The translations under genes were made by a program, and so were the position numbers. A model generated the notes under the pieces. That model was not told the origin of the DNA. It ran no database searches and saw only the letters and a list, made by a program, of their open reading frames with translations. From Rhodobacter viridis (GTDB lineage: Bacteria; Pseudomonadota; Alphaproteobacteria; Rhodobacterales; Rhodobacteraceae): a DNA stretch of 64,000 nucleotides. Shown here one piece after another: positions 3,125 through 61,000 of the stretch; position 1 is the stretch's first letter; each line of letters opens with the position of its first letter. The stretch is from NCBI RefSeq assembly GCF_003217355.1, contig NZ_QJTK01000008.1, positions 103,503-167,502 on the forward strand, given 5' to 3'.

Positions 3125-3982
3125 GTGCCTGACATGGACGCGCGCCCGCGCCGGGCGTTTGCTGTCGCCATGTTCGACTCTGCGCATCCGCCTCGTTTTC
3201 AGCGCAGCCACGGCCATGCCGCCGTGGCCTTCGACGGCGCACGTCTCAAAACCCTCGCGCAACGCGGCTCGGCGAAGGCCCTGTTGCCCCATGTGCGTGG
3301 CGTGCCGGAGGTGGTGTTTCTGAACACCTCGGGCGGTCTGACGGCGGGGGATACGCTGCGCTACGGGCTTGATCTGGACGGAGGTGCCAAGGTCGTGGCG
3401 ACGACGCAGGCGGCCGAGCGCGCCTACCGGGCCGAGGGCGACGCCGCGCGGGTGACGGTCGCGCATCGGGTCGGGCAGGGGGGGTGGCTCGACTGGCTGC
3501 CGCAGGAAACGATCCTGTTTGATCGGGCGCGGCTGCATCGCGAGACCACGGTGGATCTGGCCCCTGATGCCGGGTGCCTGCTGCTCGAGGCGGTGGTTCT
3601 GGGTCGTGCCGCGATGGGCGAGACAGTGCAAGACTTGCACTTTTGCGACATTCGCTGCGTTTCGAGGGCCGGAAAAACAATATTTCTGGAACCTCTGCTG
3701 CATAATTCGAACATTCAAGCCAAGGGCCCGCGTGCGGCGCTGCTTGGCTCTGCGCGCGCATTCGCGACGCTTGTTCTGTGTGCGCAGGGGGCGGAAGACG
3801 CGGTCGGTCAAGCGCGTGCAGCCTTGACGGTGCCCGGTGTCGAGGCCGCCGCTTCGGGCTTTGACGGCAAATGCGTGGTGCGATTGCTGGCCGAGGATGG
3901 TTGGCCGCTGCGCAAACAGATCCTGCAACTGATGGGCGCATTGCGGCGGGGCAGTCCCCCGCCGCGCGTCTGGCAAACCTGA
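3125..3982 (+). CDS. ureD: Urease accessory protein UreD
   Basis: A protein of up to 285 aa that binds apo-urease and, with UreF and UreG, delivers nickel. Family motifs are visible: PPRFQRSHGHAAVAF near the N terminus, VVFLNTSGGLTAGD at about 60-75, and the central DWLPQETILFD. The GTG at 3125 is the longest start; ATGs at 3137 and 3170 are alternatives, the last giving the more usual UreD N terminus MFDSAHPPRFQ. It is first in ureDABC, nine bases before ureA. Confidence 0.93.
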   Translation: MPDMDARPRRAFAVAMFDSAHPPRFQRSHGHAAVAFDGARLKTLAQRGSAKALLPHVRGVPEVVFLNTSGGLTAGDTLRYGLDLDGGAKVVATTQAAERAYRAEGDAARVTVAHRVGQGGWLDWLPQETILFDRARLHRETTVDLAPDAGCLLLEAVVLGRAAMGETVQDLHFCDIRCVSRAGKTIFLEPLLHNSNIQAKGPRAALLGSARAFATLVLCAQGAEDAVGQARAALTVPGVEAAASGFDGKCVVRLLAEDGWPLRKQILQLMGALRRGSPPPRVWQT

Positions 3983-7849: not shown

Positions 7850-8472
7850 CACACGGACCTTTGCGCGTCGGCATCGGCGGCCCGGTCGGCGCGGGCAAGA
7901 CGACGCTGACCGAACAGCTCTGTCGTGCGCTGGCGCCTCGGCTCTCGATGGCGGTGGTGACGAATGACATCTACACCCGCGAGGATGCCGAGGCGCTGAT
8001 GCGTGCGCAGGTGCTGCCTGTCGACCGCATCCGCGGCGTCGAGACCGGGGGTTGCCCGCATACGGCGATCCGCGAGGATGCCTCGATCAACCTTGCCGCC
8101 ATTGCCGATCTGAGCCGGCTGCATCCCGATCTGGATCTGATCCTGATCGAGTCGGGGGGCGACAACCTTGCCGCCACGTTCAGCCCGGAGCTGGCCGATC
8201 TGACGATCTATGTCATCGACACCGCCGCCGGGCAGGACATTCCGCGCAAGCGGGGGCCGGGGGTGACGCGATCGGATCTGCTTGTCGTGAACAAGACCGA
8301 CCTTGCGCCGCATGTGGGGGTTGATCCGGTGCTGCTCGAGGAAGACACGAAACGCGCCCGCGGCGCCCGTCCCTATGTGATGGCGCGGCTGCGGCATGGG
8401 GTGGGTATCGATAAAATCGTCGCTTTTCTGATCCGGGAAGGCGGTCTTGAGCAAGCGGCCGATCCGGCCTGA
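7846..8472 (+). CDS. ureG: Urease accessory GTPase UreG
   Basis: A 208-aa SIMIBI-class GTPase that drives nickel transfer into urease. The P-loop [11 protein letters not shown] is at about residues 8-18. The metal-binding CPH lies in [17 protein letters not shown], and the guanine-recognition motif is VVNKTDLA. It is the last gene of the cluster and is followed by a terminator-like hairpin. Confidence 0.96.
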
Positions 8473-49212: not shown

Positions 49213-51806
<2,594 letters not shown>

Positions 51807-52529: not shown

Positions 52530-54283
52530 GTATGCTTGCCTCGCTGGTGCGGGCCTATGACCGGCTGCCGTGGAAGCCGCCCTATGGTTTTGCGGTGCAG
52601 AACATCGGCTATTGCGTCGTCTTGACCCCGGATGGCGCCGTGGCCGAGGTGGTCGACCTGCGCGATACGGACAAGAAGCGCAGCCCGCGCCAGATGGCTG
52701 TCCCGGCCTGTCCCAAGCGTGCCGGTGTGACGCCGCGCCCGAATTTCCTGTGGGACAATGTCAACTACGCGCTTGGGGCCGGAACGCTGACCGACCCCGA
52801 GGACAAGCGCTTCGAGGCTTTCCGCGACAAGCATCTGGAGTTTCTTGAGGCCGTGGAGGATGCCGAGGTGCAAAGCTTCTGCGCCTTTCTTCGGAGTTGG
52901 TCCCCTGAAGCCCTGTCGCAGCATTTCGATCTGGAAATACTGCCTACTGCGGGGATCGTCTTTGCGATGGCGGGTAGCTATCGCGATCACTGCTTGCACG
53001 ATGCGCCCGCCTTGCGGTCGGTCTGGCTGAGCGAGCGCGAGCGTTGGACTGCCGTCGAGGGCAAGGCCGCGGCTGAGGCGGTCTGCCTCGTCTCGGGCAG
53101 ACGTTCGGCGATTGCGCGGACCCACCCGCCGATCAAGGGCGTCTGGGGGGCGCAGGTTGCCGGGGCGGCAATCGTGACCTTCAACTCGGATGCCTATGAA
53201 TCTTACGGCCACGAACAGGGCGACAATGCCCCGGTGTCAGAGGCCGCAGCCTTCGCCTATACCACGGCGCTCAACCGCTTTCTGGACAAGGACAGCGGCC
53301 ACCGGATCCAGATCGGCGATGCTTCGACGGTGTTCTGGGCCGATGCCGCCGAGGCCGAGGCCGCCGCCTTGGCCGAAGCATTCTTTGGCGAATTTTTCGA
53401 TGCCAGCGCATCGGAAAAGATCAACACTGACCGCATCGGTGCGCAGCTGGAGCGGATCCGGCGCGGCGAGCCGCTCTCCGAGGTTGCGCCGCAGCTCGAT
53501 CAGGGCGTGACCTTCTGCGTGCTTGGTCTTGCCCCCAATGCGGCGCGGCTTTCGGTGCGGTTCTGGTGGGAAAGCAGCTTTGGCACGCTGACGCGGCATT
53601 ACCAGCGTTTCGTTGAGGACATGCGCCTTGATCCGCCGCCGCGCGACGGCTGGCCGCCGCTCTGGCGCTATCTGGTCGAGCTGGCCGCGCAGGGCAAGCG
53701 CGAGAACGTGCCCCCCCTGATCGCGGGCGAGTGGATGCGCGCGATCCTGACCGGCACCGCCTATCCGCTGACGCTGCTCTCGACCACGCTCATGCGCATC
53801 CGGGCCGATGGCGAGATCAACGCCCTGCGCGCCGCCATGCTCAAATCCGTTCTGATCCGCAATTTCGCCAAGGAGGTTCCCGTGGCGCTTGATCCCGGAA
53901 ATACCAACAAAGGTTACATCCTCGGGCGGCTCTTCGCCGTCTATGAAGAGGTGCAGCGCGCGGCGCTGGGCGGCAATGTCAATGCCACCATCAAGGACAA
54001 GTTCTATGGCGCCGCCTCGGCTGCGCCGCAAAAGGTGTTCCGCACGCTCGATGCAGGGGCGCAGAACCATTTCGCCAAACTGCGCAAGCTCAGCCCCGGC
54101 CGGGCGGTGAATCTGGAAAAACTGCTCACCTCGATCACCGATCTGATGGAGCCGGGCAATGACCCGATCCCCGCCAGCTTGGCCAGTGCAGAACAGGCGC
54201 TGTTCGGCATCGGCTATTACCACCAGCGCAGTGATTTCTTCCGCAAGCATGACGATACGCCCATCACGGAGGCCGACCAATGA
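52526..54283 (+). CDS. cas8c: Type I-C Cascade large subunit Cas8c
   Basis: A 585-aa protein with the Csd1-type beginning LASLVRAYDRLPWKPPYGFA. Characteristic segments are PNFLWDNVNYALG, SGRRSAIARTHPPIKGVWGA, ATFNS-like IVTFNSDAYESYGHEQGDNA and the C-terminal ALDPGNTNKGYILGRLFAVY. It recognises the PAM and target DNA; an internal start within the gene may also give the small subunit Cas11, as known for type I-C. Its stop overlaps cas7c. Confidence 0.95.
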   Translation: MSMLASLVRAYDRLPWKPPYGFAVQNIGYCVVLTPDGAVAEVVDLRDTDKKRSPRQMAVPACPKRAGVTPRPNFLWDNVNYALGAGTLTDPEDKRFEAFRDKHLEFLEAVEDAEVQSFCAFLRSWSPEALSQHFDLEILPTAGIVFAMAGSYRDHCLHDAPALRSVWLSERERWTAVEGKAAAEAVCLVSGRRSAIARTHPPIKGVWGAQVAGAAIVTFNSDAYESYGHEQGDNAPVSEAAAFAYTTALNRFLDKDSGHRIQIGDASTVFWADAAEAEAAALAEAFFGEFFDASASEKINTDRIGAQLERIRRGEPLSEVAPQLDQGVTFCVLGLAPNAARLSVRFWWESSFGTLTRHYQRFVEDMRLDPPPRDGWPPLWRYLVELAAQGKRENVPPLIAGEWMRAILTGTAYPLTLLSTTLMRIRADGEINALRAAMLKSVLIRNFAKEVPVALDPGNTNKGYILGRLFAVYEEVQRAALGGNVNATIKDKFYGAASAAPQKVFRTLDAGAQNHFAKLRKLSPGRAVNLEKLLTSITDLMEPGNDPIPASLASAEQALFGIGYYHQRSDFFRKHDDTPITEADQ

Positions 54284-55245
54284 TCCCGCTTTCCCGCCGC
54301 CACGATTTCGTGCTGATCTTCGATGTCACGAACGGCAACCCGAACGGCGACCCGGATGCGGGCAACCTGCCGCGGCTTGACCCCGAAACGAACCATGGTC
54401 TGGTGTCCGACGTCAGCCTCAAGCGCAAGTTGCGCAACTATGTCGAGCTGGCTCGCACCGGTGAAGCCGGTCACCACATCTATGTGCAGGAAGGCGCGAT
54501 CCTGAACGAGAAGCACCGCGAAGCCTATGTCGCCAAACGGGCCGATGACGCCAAGGCCCTCAAGGAGGCGAAAGAGGCCAAGAAGCTCAACCCGAAAGGT
54601 GACGACGAAGCCCGCGCGCTGCGCGACTGGATGTGCGCGAATTTCTTCGATGTGCGGACCTTTGGCGCGGTGATGTCGACCGGCATCAACTGCGGTCAGG
54701 TCAAAGGGCCGGTGCAGATGACCTTCGCCCGCTCGGTCGAGCCGATCCTGCCGGTCGAAATCTCGATCACCCGCATGGCCGCCACCAACGAGGCGGAACA
54801 GAAGAAACGCGCCGAGGGCGAGGAGGGCGAGGCCCGCACCGACAACCGCACCATGGGCCGCAAGCATATCGTGCCCTACGGGCTTTACGTCGCGCATGGC
54901 TTCATCTCGGCGAAATTCGCCGAGCGCACCGGCTTTTCCGAGGCCGATCTCGATCTGCTCTTCGAGGCGCTGGCGAACATGTTCGAGCATGACCGCTCGG
55001 CGGCGCGTGGCGAGATGACGACGCGCAAGCTGATCGTCTTTGCGCATGAAAATGCGCTGGGCAATGCGCCTGCTCATGTGCTCTTTGACCGGGTCCGCAT
55101 CGGCCGCGCCGTCGATGGCGAATTCCGCGATCTGGATGACCGCGGCCTTGGCAACCTCGCGCCCGCGCGGAAGTTTGCCGACTACCGCGTCGAGATCGAC
55201 CGCGACGGCCTGCCCGCGGGCGTCGAGATCCGCGAGTTGCTCTGA
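54280..55245 (+). CDS. cas7c: Type I-C Cascade backbone subunit Cas7c
   Basis: A 321-aa Csd2-type protein. RHDFVLIFDVTNGNPNGDPD is the defining N terminus, with VSLKRKLRNYV-like SDVSLKRKLRNYVELA and FFDVRTFGAVMSTG following. It polymerises along the crRNA. The last base of the stop is the first base of an ATG that begins a short remnant matching the start of cas4, showing that cas4 once followed directly. Confidence 0.96.
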   Translation: MIPLSRRHDFVLIFDVTNGNPNGDPDAGNLPRLDPETNHGLVSDVSLKRKLRNYVELARTGEAGHHIYVQEGAILNEKHREAYVAKRADDAKALKEAKEAKKLNPKGDDEARALRDWMCANFFDVRTFGAVMSTGINCGQVKGPVQMTFARSVEPILPVEISITRMAATNEAEQKKRAEGEEGEARTDNRTMGRKHIVPYGLYVAHGFISAKFAERTGFSEADLDLLFEALANMFEHDRSAARGEMTTRKLIVFAHENALGNAPAHVLFDRVRIGRAVDGEFRDLDDRGLGNLAPARKFADYRVEIDRDGLPAGVEIRELL

Positions 55246-55290
55246 TGCCCGCGCTGCCCGCCGAGGGGGAGACGATCCCGCTCTCGGCGG
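55245..55290 (+). pseudogene. Duplicated 5' remnant of cas4
   Basis: The frame begins at the ATG overlapping the cas7c stop and encodes MPALPAEGETIPLSA, whose ETIPLSA matches residues 4-10 of the intact Cas4. Twenty-two bases (55269-55290) recur exactly at 55923-55944 inside cas4. After 55290 similarity is lost, and the frame stops at 55370. It marks the left border of the inserted module. Confidence 0.75.
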
Positions 55291-55325
55291 GGGCGCTGCC
55301 GCTGCTCTCGGATGGTGTAAGCGGA

Positions 55326-55393
55326 TGTGTCAACTTCTCTGCATGTGAGTTATCTGGCTTAGCCAGATAACTCATAAAATTTCCGTTGACACA
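55326..55393. repeat. Concentric palindrome at the head of the inserted module
   Basis: Outer arms TGTGTCAAC (55326-55334) and GTTGACACA (55385-55393) are perfect inverted repeats. Inner arms GAGTTATCTGGC (55347-55358) and GCCAGATAACTC (55362-55373) are also perfect, around TTA. Both pairs share the same centre (about 55360). A looser outward extension (GTAAGCGG at 55317; CGCT near 55399) suggests a small terminal-inverted-repeat element. The right arm contains TTGACA, and TAAAAT lies at 55375-55380, so a promoter is likely here. Confidence 0.7.
55335..55372 (+). promoter_or_regulatory. Candidate Cascade binding site (TTC motif plus partial protospacer)
   Basis: TTC (55335-55337), the usual type I-C PAM, is followed by TCTGCATGTGAGTTATCT. 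This matches the sequence directly after the solitary repeat at 55800-55830 in 15 of the first 18 positions. Mismatches are at 6, 12 and 14; positions 6 and 12 are the flipped-out bases that type I effectors ignore. The site lies over the left half of the palindrome and just upstream of TAAAAT. Binding without cleavage would repress transcription. Confidence 0.7.
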
Positions 55394-55558
55394 ATGACGC
55401 TCTCGCCTCATGGTTGATCTGCGAAACAGAAAAGGCCGGGCACGCGAATGCACCCGGCCCCTGCAAGCAAGACAGGCTTGGCTTGCGATCTAGCACATCA
55501 ACCATATCCAAGCCTGTCTCTTTTCACAACAGGGCAGTTGCCCGGAAAGGAAAACGAC
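55387..55558 (+). ncRNA. Highly structured leader or RNA in the inserted module
   Basis: About 170 bases before the DUF1508 start are unusually rich in complementary arms. ATGGTTGAT (55410) pairs with ATCAACCAT (55497), GGCCGGG (55434) with CCCGGCC (55453), and GACAGGCTTGG (55471) with CCAAGCCTGTC (55508). The first and third pairings cross, so they form a pseudoknot or alternate states. GGGC-AGTT-GCCC sits just before the ribosome binding site. A seven-codon frame (55394-55417) lies at the front. It may be a toxic RNA, a regulatory leader or both; this is inference. Confidence 0.5.
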
Positions 55559-55729
55559 ATGTTTGAGATTTTCTACACTGTTGGAAGGGGTTACTGGTGG
55601 CATCTCAAGGCCGGCAATGCTGAAGTCCTTTGCCACTCCGAAATGTATGCCTCCAAGCAGGGCGCGCAGAATGGGATCGACGCCGTCAAGCGGATCGCTC
55701 CGGGCGCTCCGGTCTATGATCGGACTTGA
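55559..55729 (+). CDS. DUF1508 (YegP-like) small protein within the cas operon
   Basis: A 56-aa protein, one complete DUF1508 unit: MFEIFYTVGRGYWWHLKAGN, then AEVLCHSEMYASKQGAQNGI and DAVKRIAPGAPVYDRT. The ribosome binding site GGAAAGG precedes the ATG at 55559. DUF1508 proteins are small beta-alpha proteins without known biochemical role, common on chromosomes but not part of type I-C systems. It lies between a candidate Cascade-repressed promoter and a crRNA-like gene, so it may be the regulated product. Function unknown. Confidence 0.85.
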   Translation: MFEIFYTVGRGYWWHLKAGNAEVLCHSEMYASKQGAQNGIDAVKRIAPGAPVYDRT

Positions 55730-55735
55730 TGGCTT

Positions 55736-55758
55736 CGGAGGTTTTGCCGCCTCCGTTT
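55736..55758 (+). terminator. Terminator-like hairpin after DUF1508 gene
   Basis: CGGAGG (55736-55741) and CCTCCG (55750-55755) form a stem with an eight-base loop followed by TTT, seven bases after the stop codon. Confidence 0.55.
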
Positions 55759-55773
55759 CCCCCTGAAGCCTTG

Positions 55774-55797
55774 CGTCCGCGACCCGTGTCGCGGACG
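55774..55797. other. Strong hairpin directly before the solitary repeat
   Basis: CGTCCGCGAC (55774-55783) and GTCGCGGACG (55788-55797) pair perfectly around CCGT. No T run follows. It may insulate the crRNA-like RNA from upstream transcription or be a processing site. Confidence 0.55.
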
Positions 55798-55799
55798 TT

Positions 55800-55888
55800 G
55801 TCGTCTCCCGAGCGAGACGTGGATAGAAACTCTGCTTGTGATTGATCTTGGCTTTAGCCAGTGAGGTCGGTCTGTTAGACTGGCCTCA
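55800..55888 (+). ncRNA. Solitary CRISPR-like repeat with pseudo-spacer (crRNA-like regulator candidate)
   Basis: Bases 55800-55830 (31 nt) mirror the 32-nt array repeat: they start GTCG and end GTGGATAGAAAC, against GTGGATCGAAAC. The stem is kept although two C-G pairs became T-A pairs (positions 5/18 and 7/16), a compensatory change. The following ~31 bases act as spacer and match 55338 beside TTC. Then a twelve-pair hairpin (55862-55888, loop GTT) stands where the next repeat stem would be. This resembles a mature type I-C crRNA. Similar RNAs are CreA, CreR and phage Racr elements. Confidence 0.7.
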
Positions 55889-55913
55889 TTCTGGTTAGCG
55901 GATCGAAGGCATC

Positions 55914-56549
55914 ATGGATTTTGAGACGATCCCGCTCTCGGCGGTGCAGCATGCGGTTTACTGTCTGCGGCAGGCGGCGCTGATCCATCTCGAGCGGCTT
56001 TGGGACGAGAATATCTTTACCGCGCAAGGGGATGTGCTTCATGCCGTGGCCGACAAGGGCGGCAGCCGAAAGGGCAGGGGAGGGCGGCGGGTGCTGTCGC
56101 TGCCGCTCGGCTCTGTCCGGCTTGGCCTTTCGGGCGTGGCCGATCTGGTCGAGTTCCAGCCCCTGCCTGAGGGCGGCGAGCGCCCGTTTCCGGTCGAATA
56201 CAAGCGCGGCAAGCCGAAGCTGCACCGCGCCGACGAGGCTCAGCTTTGCGCGCAGGCGCTCTGCCTCGAGGAGATGACCGGCCAGTCGGTTCCCGAAGGC
56301 GCGCTTTCCTATGCGCAGACGAAACGCCGCGTCACCGTGCCCTTCGATGCTGATCTGCGCGCCCTGACCGAGGCCACGGTGGCCGATCTTGCCGCCGTCT
56401 TCGCCAGGGGTGCCACCCCGCCGCCAACGCCGCATCGCAGCCGTTGCCGGGCCTGTTCTTTGCTCGACCTCTGCCGCCCCGACACCGTCGCCCGCCCGGT
56501 CAAACGCTGGCGCGATCAGACCCTTGCCCGGTTGCTGGAGGCGCGATGA
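55914..56549 (+). CDS. cas4: CRISPR adaptation exonuclease Cas4
   Basis: A 211-aa RecB-family nuclease that trims and PAM-selects prespacers. One Cys lies at residue 17 (AVYCLRQAALIHLE), and three are in the C-terminal RCRACSLLDLCRPD, the expected iron-sulphur ligands. The nuclease core has FPVEYKRGKPK and ADEAQLCAQALCLE. The start MDFETIPLSAV is shorter than the remnant version (MPALPAEGETIPLSA), so the inserted module replaced the first residues. The stop overlaps cas1. Confidence 0.93.
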   Translation: MDFETIPLSAVQHAVYCLRQAALIHLERLWDENIFTAQGDVLHAVADKGGSRKGRGGRRVLSLPLGSVRLGLSGVADLVEFQPLPEGGERPFPVEYKRGKPKLHRADEAQLCAQALCLEEMTGQSVPEGALSYAQTKRRVTVPFDADLRALTEATVADLAAVFARGATPPPTPHRSRCRACSLLDLCRPDTVARPVKRWRDQTLARLLEAR

Positions 56550-58049: not shown

Positions 58050-61000
58050 GTCGCCCCCTTCGCGGGGGCGTGGATCGAAACCTTGCGCTGGACATGGCGT
58101 TGCACCTCGCCTTCGTCGCCCCCTTCGCGGGGGCGTGGATCGAAACCGTTTGGACGCGCCGCACCTCGTCAAGCACCAGATGTCGCCCCCTTCGCGGGGG
58201 CGTGGATCGAAACCTTGTGGTAGCCATAGCCACCCGCCTTGCCGCAGCGTCGCCCCCTTCGCGGGGGCGTGGATCGAAACCTCGCTTTCGCCGTCGATGG
58301 TGTCTCCCTCGACAGCGTCGCCCCCTTCGCGGGGGCGTGGATCGAAACATCTGGGGATCTGGCGCGGTCGAGATGATCGCCGTCGCCCCCTTCGCGGGGG
58401 CGTGGATCGAAACGAACGGCGCCGGATGCCTGCGATGCCGCCGCCGCCCGTCGCCCCCTTCGCGGGGGCGTGGATCGAAACATATAGGCCGCGATCGAGA
58501 TAGCCATCGACGGCCGGTCGCCCCCTTCGCGGGGGCGTGGATCGAAACTCGGCGGCCAGCGCCTCGATGGCGTCGGCGGCTTGTCGCCCCCTTCGCGGGG
58601 GCGTGGATCGAAACTCGTCGTCTGGCAGGCTCGCCCCGCCGCGCTGCCAGTCGCCCCCTTCGCGGGGGCGTGGATCGAAACGCCCAGCTCGCGCCACATG
58701 TCGGCCACGGTGCGCGTCGCCCCCTTCGCGGGGGCGTGGATCGAAACACCAGATGAAACGCGACCTGCCAGCCCACGTCTACAAGTCGCCCCCTTCGCGG
58801 GGGCGTGGATCGAAACTATGAGCTGAGGGCGATGAAGTGATCCGTCAGCCGTCGCCCCCTTCGCGGGGGCGTGGATCGAAACATGTCGCCGATCACCTCG
58901 ACGACGCCTGGCTTGCGGTCGCCCCCTTCGCGGGGGCGTGGATCGAAACTGTTGCATCGCACCTTTACTGGGTGTAAACATGACCGTCGCCCCCTTCGCG
59001 GGGGCGTGGATCGAAACTCTGGCTCATGGGGTGGGGCCCGGCGTACAGGCCCGTCGCCCCCTTCGCGGGGGCGTGGATCGAAACCGCAATCTCGCCGCGG
59101 CGCAGCTGCTTGTAGCTGGTCGCCCCCTTCGCGGGGGCGTGGATCGAAACCAGATCGGATCGATCAGCTTGTGCAGCTCTTGGCGTCGCCCCCTTCGCGG
59201 GGGCGTGGATCGAAACCAGTTCTTCGACAGCGAAGAAGATCGCGCCGCCGTCGCCCCCTTCGCGGGGGCGTGGATCGAAACGTGCAGCACTTCGTAGCGC
59301 GCCACGCCCGCAAATAGTCGCCCCCTTCGCGGGGGCGTGGATCGAAACCTGCCGCCCGCGCCACGGTGACCGCAGCGAACACGTCGCCCCCTTCGCGGGG
59401 GCGTGGATCGAAACCTCGGTGGCGCAAAGGCGCTTTTCAAACTGATCGGTCGCCCCCTTCGCGGGGGCGTGGATCGAAACGCCATGCGGCTTTCGATGCG
59501 CGCGACCTGCTGCAGTCGCCCCCTTCGCGGGGGCGTGGATCGAAACGATCTTGGCGACCTCAAGCTCGGATGCCGCGGCGTCGTCGCCCCCTTCGCGGGG
59601 GCGTGGATCGAAACGATCCGCTGGCGCAAATCCGGCGCCGTCTGGGCCGGTCGCCCCCTTCGCGGGGGCGTGGATCGAAACTTGTAGGTGCAGCTGCGCC
59701 GATCCCACGGGTTGAAGTCGCCCCCTTCGCGGGGGCGTGGATCGAAACGGACGGTGGAACTCAACCGCGCCACCTCGCCCACGTCGCCCCCTTCGCGGGG
59801 GCGTGGATCGAAACAAGAGCTGGTGCAGCCATCGTATGCGCGTCCTATCGTCGCCCCCTTCGCGGGGGCGTGGATCGAAACACCGGAGCGATGCAGGATG
59901 CCGTTTCCGCACGCTGTCGCCCCCTTCGCGGGGGCGTGGATCGAAACCAGCGCCCGTTGAACGCGCGCTCAACCATACAGAGTCGCCCCCTTCGCGGGGG
60001 CGTGGATCGAAACATCAGCACGAGGTCGAACCCGACGCCGAGCCATCCGGTCGCCCCCTTCGCGGGGGCGTGGATCGAAACCGATCCGGCCCCGGCGGGG
60101 TTGAGCGCAGCGTCACGTCGCCCCCTTCGCGGGGGCGTGGATCGAAACTGCCGCTTGGCATGTTCGGCCCGCGCCGCCCGCTGTCGCCCCCTTCGCGGGG
60201 GCGTGGATCGAAACGAAAGGTCAGGCAGACGTTTCGGGGTGACGCGGCGTCGCCCCCTTCGCGGGGGCGTGGATCGAAACAGCTCGAACGCGTTCAGCGC
60301 CGTGCCCGACAGCGCGTCGCCCCCTTCGCGGGGGCGTGGATCGAAACGGTCACCCCGTAGGTGCCATCCTCCTTGCGGCTGGTCGCCCCCTTCGCGGGGG
60401 CGTGGATCGAAACTCGCACTACCGCGCCGGTCAGACCGTCGCCGCCTTGTCGCCCCCTTCGCGGGGGCGTGGATCGAAACATCGCGTCTATCCAAGCCTT
60501 TGACGAGGCCATCAAGTCGCCCCCTTCGCGGGGGCGTGGATCGAAACATGGGCGGTCAGACGTTCGGCGCTGTCAGCCCGCTGTCGCCCCCTTCGCGGGG
60601 GCGTGGATCGAAACAGACCGCCTTCGGGATGCCGCCGAGGATCGCGTTGTCGCCCCCTTCGCGGGGGCGTGGATCGAAACTTCACGGTGCCGGGGGCGTA
60701 GATTTTCTGCAGGAGTCGCCCCCTTCGCGGGGGCGTGGATCGAAACCATGTCAGCAAAGTAGCGCCCATCGCTACAATTCGTCGCCCCCTTCGCGGGGGC
60801 GTGGATCGAAACACGCGGCGGGTCACGTTGACCCGGACCGCCTTATTGTCGCCCCCTTCGCGGGGGCGTGGATCGAAACCACCATGGCAATCCTCTACGC
60901 CTGGCATAAGGCCGGTCGCCCCCTTCGCGGGGGCGTGGATCGAAACGTTTAATTGGTGCAAGCGCAATTCATGGTTAACGGTCGCCCCCTTCGCGGGGGC

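Follow-up and report, generated by a model that had tools for sequence, protein, structure and literature searches.

CreTA modules, classed as type VIII toxin-antitoxin systems, have been described in the type I-B systems of Haloarcula hispanica and Halobacterium hubeiense, in type I-F of Acinetobacter, and in type I-E of Citrobacter. As set out in excerpts of PMC8501985, the CreA guide of H. hubeiense pairs with its target at positions 1-5 and 7-11 beside TTC, changes at positions 6 or 12 are neutral, and the promoter of the creTA operon is autorepressed. The target of the Citrobacter type I-E guide is, according to an excerpt of PMC12055562, the UP element of the toxin promoter. For type I-C, corresponding excerpts indicate that promoter repression by Cascade with a TTC PAM is possible (PMC10865793) and that the crRNA is processed by Cas5c (PMC7684278). 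CreTA, I-C, and CRISPR are all named in PMC13131331. A search of the open-licence literature, judged from its listings, returned no type I-C CreTA module. A 2023 survey of CRISPR-derived regulatory RNAs by Shmakov and colleagues could already list such guides.

Here, we analysed a 64,000-nt stretch of the Rhodobacter viridis genome (the window), which encodes a complete type I-C system consisting of cas3, cas5c, cas8c, cas7c, cas4, cas1, and cas2, with an array from position 58050. Between the end of cas7c (55245) and the start of cas4 (55914) lies an insert (55291-55922) with a target next to TTC, a palindrome, and a TTGACA box, followed by a structured leader, a DUF1508 gene, one degenerate repeat standing alone, a guide, and a hairpin. 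The palindrome, leader, DUF1508 ORF, and solitary repeat were all present between the two cas genes as the initial annotation had them. The features of the locus are as follows.

54280..55245, plus strand: cas7c (Csd2), the upstream neighbour (TIGR02589, 1.6e-115)
55269..55290, plus strand: 22-nt direct repeat, copy 1, within the remnant of the original cas4 start (ATG 55245); repeat family D4, comparison with insert-free loci
55335..55337, plus strand: PAM TTC (guide-target search)
55338..55355, plus strand: guide target (protospacer), identical at 15 of 18 positions, all but 6, 12, and 14 (guide-target search)
55346..55374, no strand: palindrome overlapping the target, 14-nt arms 55346-55359/55361-55374 (repeat finding; strong also in L033)
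55386..55391, plus strand: -35-like TTGACA, 48 nt downstream of the PAM; L033 (47) and L117 (42) have the exact box too (motif search)
55409..55414, plus strand: candidate weak -10-like CATGGT, 17-nt spacing (motif search)
55421..55558, plus strand: structured RNA leader with a putative start; hairpin 1 55433-55444/55449-55460, hairpin 2 55470-55483/55506-55519 (z -4.23; covariation)
55559..55729, plus strand: DUF1508 gene, 56 aa, motif LCHSE (Pfam PF07411, 5e-17; PHROG 1422, 1e-8; HVO_2922 family below cut-off)
55800..55830, plus strand: solitary degenerate CRISPR repeat (psiR), stem 55802-55807/55814-55819, handle TGGATAGAAAC at 55820-55830 (repeat comparison, folding)
55831..55848, plus strand: guide, pairing part; psiS runs on to ~55861 (guide-target search)
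55862..55888, plus strand: strong hairpin after the guide that lacks a U-run and probably serves as a degenerate 3' handle; transcription may run on into cas4 (folding; no plus-strand terminator predicted)
55914..56549, plus strand: cas4, the downstream neighbour (TIGR00372, 1.8e-35)
55923..55944, plus strand: 22-nt direct repeat, copy 2, within cas4 (repeat finding)

The two cas genes had been said normally to abut. In a scan of genome contigs with Cas7c, in which 80 of 134 relatives were kept, 76 of the 80 loci had a detectable cas4 (the other four gave no cas4 match), and the cas7-cas4 gap is 88 nt or less in 61 of these 76 but exceeds 300 nt in the remaining 15, so the statement holds for most loci only. 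The insert in the window is flanked by a perfect 22-nt direct repeat, absent from the initial annotation, which is a duplicated piece of the cas4 start; in loci lacking the insert, such as L008 and L011, this start is uninterrupted. Because the original cas4 start has been left behind cas7, because 22 nt of it are repeated exactly at the far side, and because the other 17 genomes of the genus that were searched gave no DUF1508 match, we read the arrangement as a recent insertion into the start of cas4.

In the psiR of the window, the array stem is replaced by CGTCTC/GAGACG. The bases that follow it do match a TTC-flanked site, as had been proposed, with 14 of the 15 non-flip positions (all except 6, 12, and 18) identical, a match equalled in 3 of 5000 Markov-shuffled inserts. 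A second match of the guide, 13 of 18 at 55403-55420, lies over the weak -10 beside CTC instead of TTC. As predicted from the sequence, the cas locus carries a crRNA-like gene whose degenerate repeat has a 5' handle and a putative processing stem, together with a PAM-flanked partial match of its guide to a region that would control transcription of its own cargo.

The same cas7-cas4 insertion was sought elsewhere, and a cassette behind cas7 was found in four more loci, i.e. L033 of Paracoccus shanxieyensis, L117/L185, L118/L186, and L155/L187. L033 is among the 80 kept cas7c loci, and its DUF1508 is 70% identical to that of the window. A genus draw around L033 (125 genomes) gave four matches, with L033, L117/L185, and L118/L186 behind cas7 and L119/L188 elsewhere, and a family draw around the Mesorhizobium genome of L036 (327 genomes) yielded the fifth cassette, L155/L187. 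The cassette is rare: it is present in 1 of 18 genomes of its own genus (that of the window), in 1 of the 80 kept cas7c loci, and in 3 of 125 genomes of the L033 genus draw. At the DNA level, 5 of 295 family genomes matched, the window's own and four with 33-42 nt; the pattern GTGGATAGAAACTCTG occurs with at most one mismatch in 11 of 394 family genomes, exactly only in that of the window. A search of L001 and L033 against Rfam returned two weak matches in L033, outside the cassette and far below gathering. The handle is found in all five cassettes. The psiR stem is the best fold in three of them (window, L117, and L155), with a different sequence in each and just before the handle; L033 has a 7-bp stem for which another fold is predicted to be better, and L118 has no clear stem. 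A strong hairpin without a U-run follows the guide in the window, L033, L117, and L155, the stretch folded in L118 being too short to judge. The cassette lies directly upstream of cas4-cas1-cas2 in the window, L033, L185, and L187. L118/L186 has lost cas4 along with the N-terminal 52 residues of cas1 but keeps guide, target, and DUF1508 ORF, and in L155 the PAM and first 7 nt of the target overlap the last codons and stop of cas7.

To compare guides and targets across loci, we took the 18 nt after each handle as the guide and searched the cassettes, which have 17-30 TTC sites each, with rG:dT and rU:dG wobble counted. At the best TTC site, 14, 13, 14, 12, and 14 of the 15 non-flip positions match in the window, L033, L117, L118, and L155, respectively, against 9, 9, 10, 9, and 12 at the next best site; the fractions of Markov shuffles reaching the observed score are, in the same order, 0.0006, 0.0144, 0.003, 0.0526, and 0.0004. 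When both strands were searched and no PAM was required, the best ungapped 18-mer match adjoined TTC in five of five cassettes, always on the plus strand at the cassette head. Identity is 63/75 at pairing positions versus 4/15 at positions 6, 12, and 18 (Fisher 2.4e-5, with sites chosen over all 18 positions). Positions 6 and 12 are not paired by Cascade according to the excerpts of PMC8501985, and counting position 18 as unpaired is our own extension of the 6-nt period. Guides and targets vary between loci but change together, the matched letters differing at 12 of 15 non-flip positions. Swapping guides among loci always lowers the score: every cognate pair outscores all other pairings of its guide and of its target, and among the 120 possible assignments the cognate one comes first (63 matches versus at most 56). 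Past position 18, identity in the window, L033, and L155 resumes only with a 1-2-nt shift, which is not seen in L117 and L118; we read this slip of register near position 17-19 as a block to full pairing in those three loci.

The upstream region had been described as a promoter-bearing palindrome. Its TTGACA box (55386-55391) is strong, but the promoter as a whole is weak by consensus, with a poor -10 box 17 nt further on, and promoter prediction found none. In three of the five loci, the PAM is followed at a distance of 42-48 nt by an exact TTGACA (reached in 35, 25, and 32 of 2000 shuffles), L155 has a weak -35 box only, and L118 has no recognisable -35. That the target lies upstream of the -35 box, not over the -10, counts against the model of repression. 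The palindrome, clear only in the window and L033, was rejected as a defining part of the cassette: its Watson-Crick arm length is reached by 0, 0, 255, 41, and 396 of 400 shuffles in the window, L033, L117, L118, and L155, respectively, and by 0, 0, 112, 15, and 393 of 400 with wobble allowed. L118/L186 looks like a partly decayed member of the family, since it combines the weakest guide match with a missing -35, no clear psiR stem, and deletion of cas4 and the start of cas1.

All four leaders that were folded individually do better than shuffled sequences (z -4.23 in the window, -5.19 in L033, -3.95 in L185, and -4.39 in L186), and three DUF1508 leaders from outside CRISPR loci give weaker values (z -0.68, -2.06, and -2.38). 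In the common fold of the five leaders, which is favoured by having been derived from the same five sequences used for its test, both sides have changed in 14 of 26 pairs, and the covariation score is reached by none of 500 shuffles. Four of five covariation measures exceed all 500 shuffles, the fifth, further pair types, is not unusual (50 of 500), and the signal collapses on sliding. Hairpin 1 was also flagged by terminator prediction, on the minus strand. A 27-codon ORF at 55410 was considered as a CreT mini-ORF and rejected, having no Shine-Dalgarno sequence by eye and an ATG that is not conserved in L033. Where CreTA has a toxic RNA as cargo, the cassette has a structured, covarying leader, and its cargo also encodes a conserved protein. 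In pairwise comparisons of the five DUF1508 genes, third-position differences outnumber the sum of first- and second-position differences in 8 of 10 pairs, the exceptions being window-L117 (29 versus 31) and window-L118 (28 versus 29); dN is 0.18-0.33, and dS, which could be computed for four pairs but not for the other six, is 2.0-3.2. This codon pattern indicates that DUF1508 is under purifying selection.

These comparisons bear on whether the insert has any role. The 22-nt direct repeat that marks the insertion, the presence of the gene in the window's genome only within the genus, and L118, which shows that cassettes can decay, would all suit a decayed CRISPR unit joined by an unrelated inserted DUF1508 gene without present function. 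This reading is highly improbable in view of the same order of parts in five loci, the covarying guide-target pairs and leader hairpins, and the purifying selection on DUF1508. No more credit can be given to an RNA anti-CRISPR (Racr) captured from a phage, which the initial annotation had offered as an alternative. A solitary repeat could act as a mimic that occupies Cas proteins, and Racrs are known (PMC10651486, in excerpt), but the repeat lies in a cas operon, and searches of the phage and plasmid collections returned no match at the DNA level, nor did phages give one at the protein level. In addition, none of six viral matches of the pattern GTGGATAGAAACTCTG has a cas match in the surrounding stretch or, by eye, a repeat-like stem, and a Racr would not need the covarying PAM-flanked target found within the cassette itself in five cas operons.

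Guide-directed repression by type I-C Cascade is very likely, given that guides and targets covary, that the best match lies beside TTC in five of five loci, that the leader covaries, and that purifying selection acts on DUF1508. The proposal of a CreTA-like guide that aims the type I-C Cascade of the host at its own cassette is thus strengthened by the five-locus covariation, the PAM, and an anatomy as in CreTA, but its protein cargo is not new in kind, as CrePA illustrates. According to the model that we favour, Cas5c would cleave the transcript at the psiR stem and so release a CreA-like crRNA, with which Cascade would bind the target without full pairing. Since binding without full pairing is what the register slip in the window, L033, and L155 would impose, Cas3 would not destroy the chromosome. 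Bound Cascade might block RNA polymerase at an UP element or act as a roadblock to read-through from cas7, and when Cascade is lost or inhibited the cassette would be switched on as a putative alarm or poison guarding the immune system. We consider it probable that Cascade keeps the leader and DUF1508 silent via its own guide and that its loss or inhibition would release a harmful or protective product. Harm from this product, be it DUF1508 or the leader, is plausible.

A different use of the same guide would be a CreR-like autoregulator, through which Cascade limits cas4-cas1-cas2 so that acquisition rises when Cascade is titrated or inhibited, with DUF1508 as a passenger or adaptation helper. 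CreR has been described for types I-B, I-E, and V-A, and the position immediately upstream of cas4-cas1-cas2 in the window, L033, L185, and L187 would suit it. Moreover, since no U-run terminator was predicted on the plus strand between guide and cas4 in the window, transcripts may continue into cas4, which would permit regulation of cas4-cas1-cas2. In four loci, DUF1508 and then cas4 follow the target; L186 has a cas1 remnant there instead of cas4. On the other hand, the gene lying between target and cas4 is under purifying selection. L186 has retained guide, target, and DUF1508 ORF despite having lost cas4 and the beginning of cas1, although this argument counts for little because the L118/L186 cassette looks partly decayed. 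On balance, we regard such an autoregulator as unlikely, and Cascade repression of a guarded cargo as the better account.

What this cargo might do was approached through its relatives. Matches to the DUF1508 profile are frequent, in 34 of 394 genomes of one search and 130 of 327 of another, and of the 59 loci fetched from both (L126-L184) L155 alone is flanked by cas genes within ~1.5 kb. A class draw with P0007 matched 11 of 385, the best outside the window at 4.9e-10. By protein, plasmids gave 14 records, all ordinary DUF1508 proteins below 60% identity, and viral contigs gave two loci, one an ordinary DUF1508 (56% over 45 residues) and one a 10-residue match. Among the fetched loci, the LCHSE motif occurs in eight distinct genes, of which five are behind cas7, two are beside type I restriction-modification genes, and one is disrupted (L188). 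The two restriction-associated genes lie in defence islands, L189 with HsdM, HsdS, HipA, and AbiEi, and L190, where the motif reads ICHSE, with HsdM, GmrSD, and SLFN. LCHSE is also found in most of 24 database DUF1508 proteins, for 1 of which genome context was available. Because LCHSE-type genes are also found beside type I restriction genes, the CRISPR locus probably acquired its DUF1508 gene as an effector that already existed. More tentatively, LCHSE-type DUF1508 and the leader RNA may form a portable guard effector, locked in type I-C by Cascade and a CreA-like guide, and at type I restriction loci by an adjacent small regulator, that fires when the system is broken or inhibited. A sub-case of the main model, which we hold to be possible yet somewhat doubtful, is a back-up harmless to the cell, in which Cascade represses an accessory defence or stress protein that takes over under anti-CRISPR. 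It shares the same guide logic, and two of the eight LCHSE-type genes with known surroundings adjoin type I restriction-modification genes; against it, DUF1508 has no known activity, and the guarded cargos in the excerpted papers are toxins. In our literature search, judged from its listings, no report of DUF1508 function or toxicity was found.

Further candidates came from a scan of the 80 cas7c loci for a solitary handle with a stem, which returned 11 candidates, four of them reaching 13/15 (L033, L013, L019, and L078). L013, L019, and L078 have candidate CreTA-like guides in the cas3-cas5 gap, where 25, 66, and 5 of 3000 shuffled guides, respectively, match equally within the gap; for L019, the guide is by number only suggestive. 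By eye, TTGACA-N17-TATTTT adjoins the PAM in L019, which also has a hydrophobic ORF of 31 codons; in L078, TTGACA is accompanied by a 12-codon ORF that includes four AGA codons, a layout near that of classical CreT. Going by these three candidates, type I-C may harbour more guards than the literature records. From a guard cassette with a conserved protein, one could learn how CRISPR systems withstand loss and anti-CRISPR attack, and, if the model is true, a DUF1508 subgroup would gain its first possible function. The LCHSE motif, or a solitary handle with a TTC target, offers a searchable marker for more guards. Should the portable-effector reading be true, the cassettes would represent a new class of CRISPR-guarded effectors and a guard module for type I-C, a type without cas6.

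Compared with known systems, the cassette resembles CreTA in having a degenerate repeat within a cas locus and a guide that partly matches a PAM-flanked site in the putative control region of its cargo, in line with the 1-5 and 7-11 pairing in H. hubeiense and the UP-element target in Citrobacter, as excerpted. Unlike CreTA, it belongs to a type I-C system without cas6, whereas every creTA reported before the Acinetobacter study surrounds cas6 (PMC10097628). Its cargo is a structured leader with a conserved 56-aa protein rather than a mini-ORF RNA, and it has one psiR and a hairpin, two psiR being the commoner arrangement in the CreTA descriptions excerpted. With CrePA, it shares a protein-coding cargo repressible by Cascade and a CreA-like RNA, the repression being predicted here (review PMC12737573, in excerpt). 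In that excerpt, CreP is typically a KilA-N protein, which is not stated as obligatory, whereas Pfam identifies only DUF1508, and no KilA-N domain, in the protein of the window. As in CreR, a crRNA-like guide partly matches a site within the cas locus that precedes cas genes; unlike CreR, which generally lacks a toxin gene, the cassette of the window has a conserved cargo gene between target and cas4. With DUF1508/UPF0339 (YegP) proteins, which are common elsewhere and include solved structures (2k8e, 2k49, 6q2z, 3bid, and 2k7i), the cassette protein shares its domain, and the CRISPR-linked members share LCHSE. Taken together, these comparisons place the cassette with CreTA and CrePA, as a new form that belongs to type I-C and bears DUF1508: CRISPR-repressed cassettes as such are known, and what is new is the type I-C setting, the DUF1508 cargo, and evidence drawn from a family of five.

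Within the DUF1508 cassette, the insert between cas7c and cas4, a strong palindrome is found in two of the five cassette-bearing loci and is missing or weak in the other three. Its arms covary between the window and L033 (Paracoccus shanxieyensis) and, at several positions, also with the guide, i.e. the bases that follow the solitary degenerate repeat (psiR).

Window 55346-55374: strong palindrome
L033 about 8150-8190: strong palindrome
Window 55462-55431, minus strand: leader hairpin 1, intrinsic-terminator-like by terminator prediction

By eye, L118 has a T-run like that of the minus-strand terminator candidate at hairpin 1. The guide has a second partial match (13/18) at window 55403-55420, which adjoins CTC and covers a weak -10, and which could be either a second Cascade contact or chance. 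In the relative L186 (genome G818), cas4 is gone and cas1 is without its first 52 residues; the effector genes, the array and the DUF1508 cassette are still present, and the cassette looks partly decayed.

The window also has an ORF between cas3 and cas5.

Window 51405-51806: ORF resembling a GIY-YIG nuclease by eye

It has no Pfam match and a weak PHROG match to a homing endonuclease (0.0065). L054, L062, and L065 carry a relative of this ORF between cas7 and cas4, exactly where other loci have the DUF1508 cassette. In 11 more type I-C loci (L069, L070, L072, L075-L077, L079-L082, and L085), the cas7-cas4 distance is 517-1396 nt.

Where DUF1508 genes lie next to type I restriction-modification genes, an ORF of 83-84 aa precedes them in two genomes.

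L189 4856-5110: ORF preceding DUF1508
L190 5525-5776: ORF preceding DUF1508

This ORF, which has no Pfam match in either genome, is possibly a regulator.

In known CreTA modules, a crRNA-like guide lets Cascade silence the toxic RNA CreT. Candidate CreTA-like modules, each with a solitary psiR, a guide and a TTC target, occur in the cas3-cas5 gap of three type I-C loci.

L019 5150-5500: candidate module
L078 5300-5590: candidate module
L013 about 3231-3616: candidate module

The L019 candidate contains a hydrophobic mini-ORF of 31 codons, and the L078 candidate a 12-codon mini-ORF with four AGA codons.
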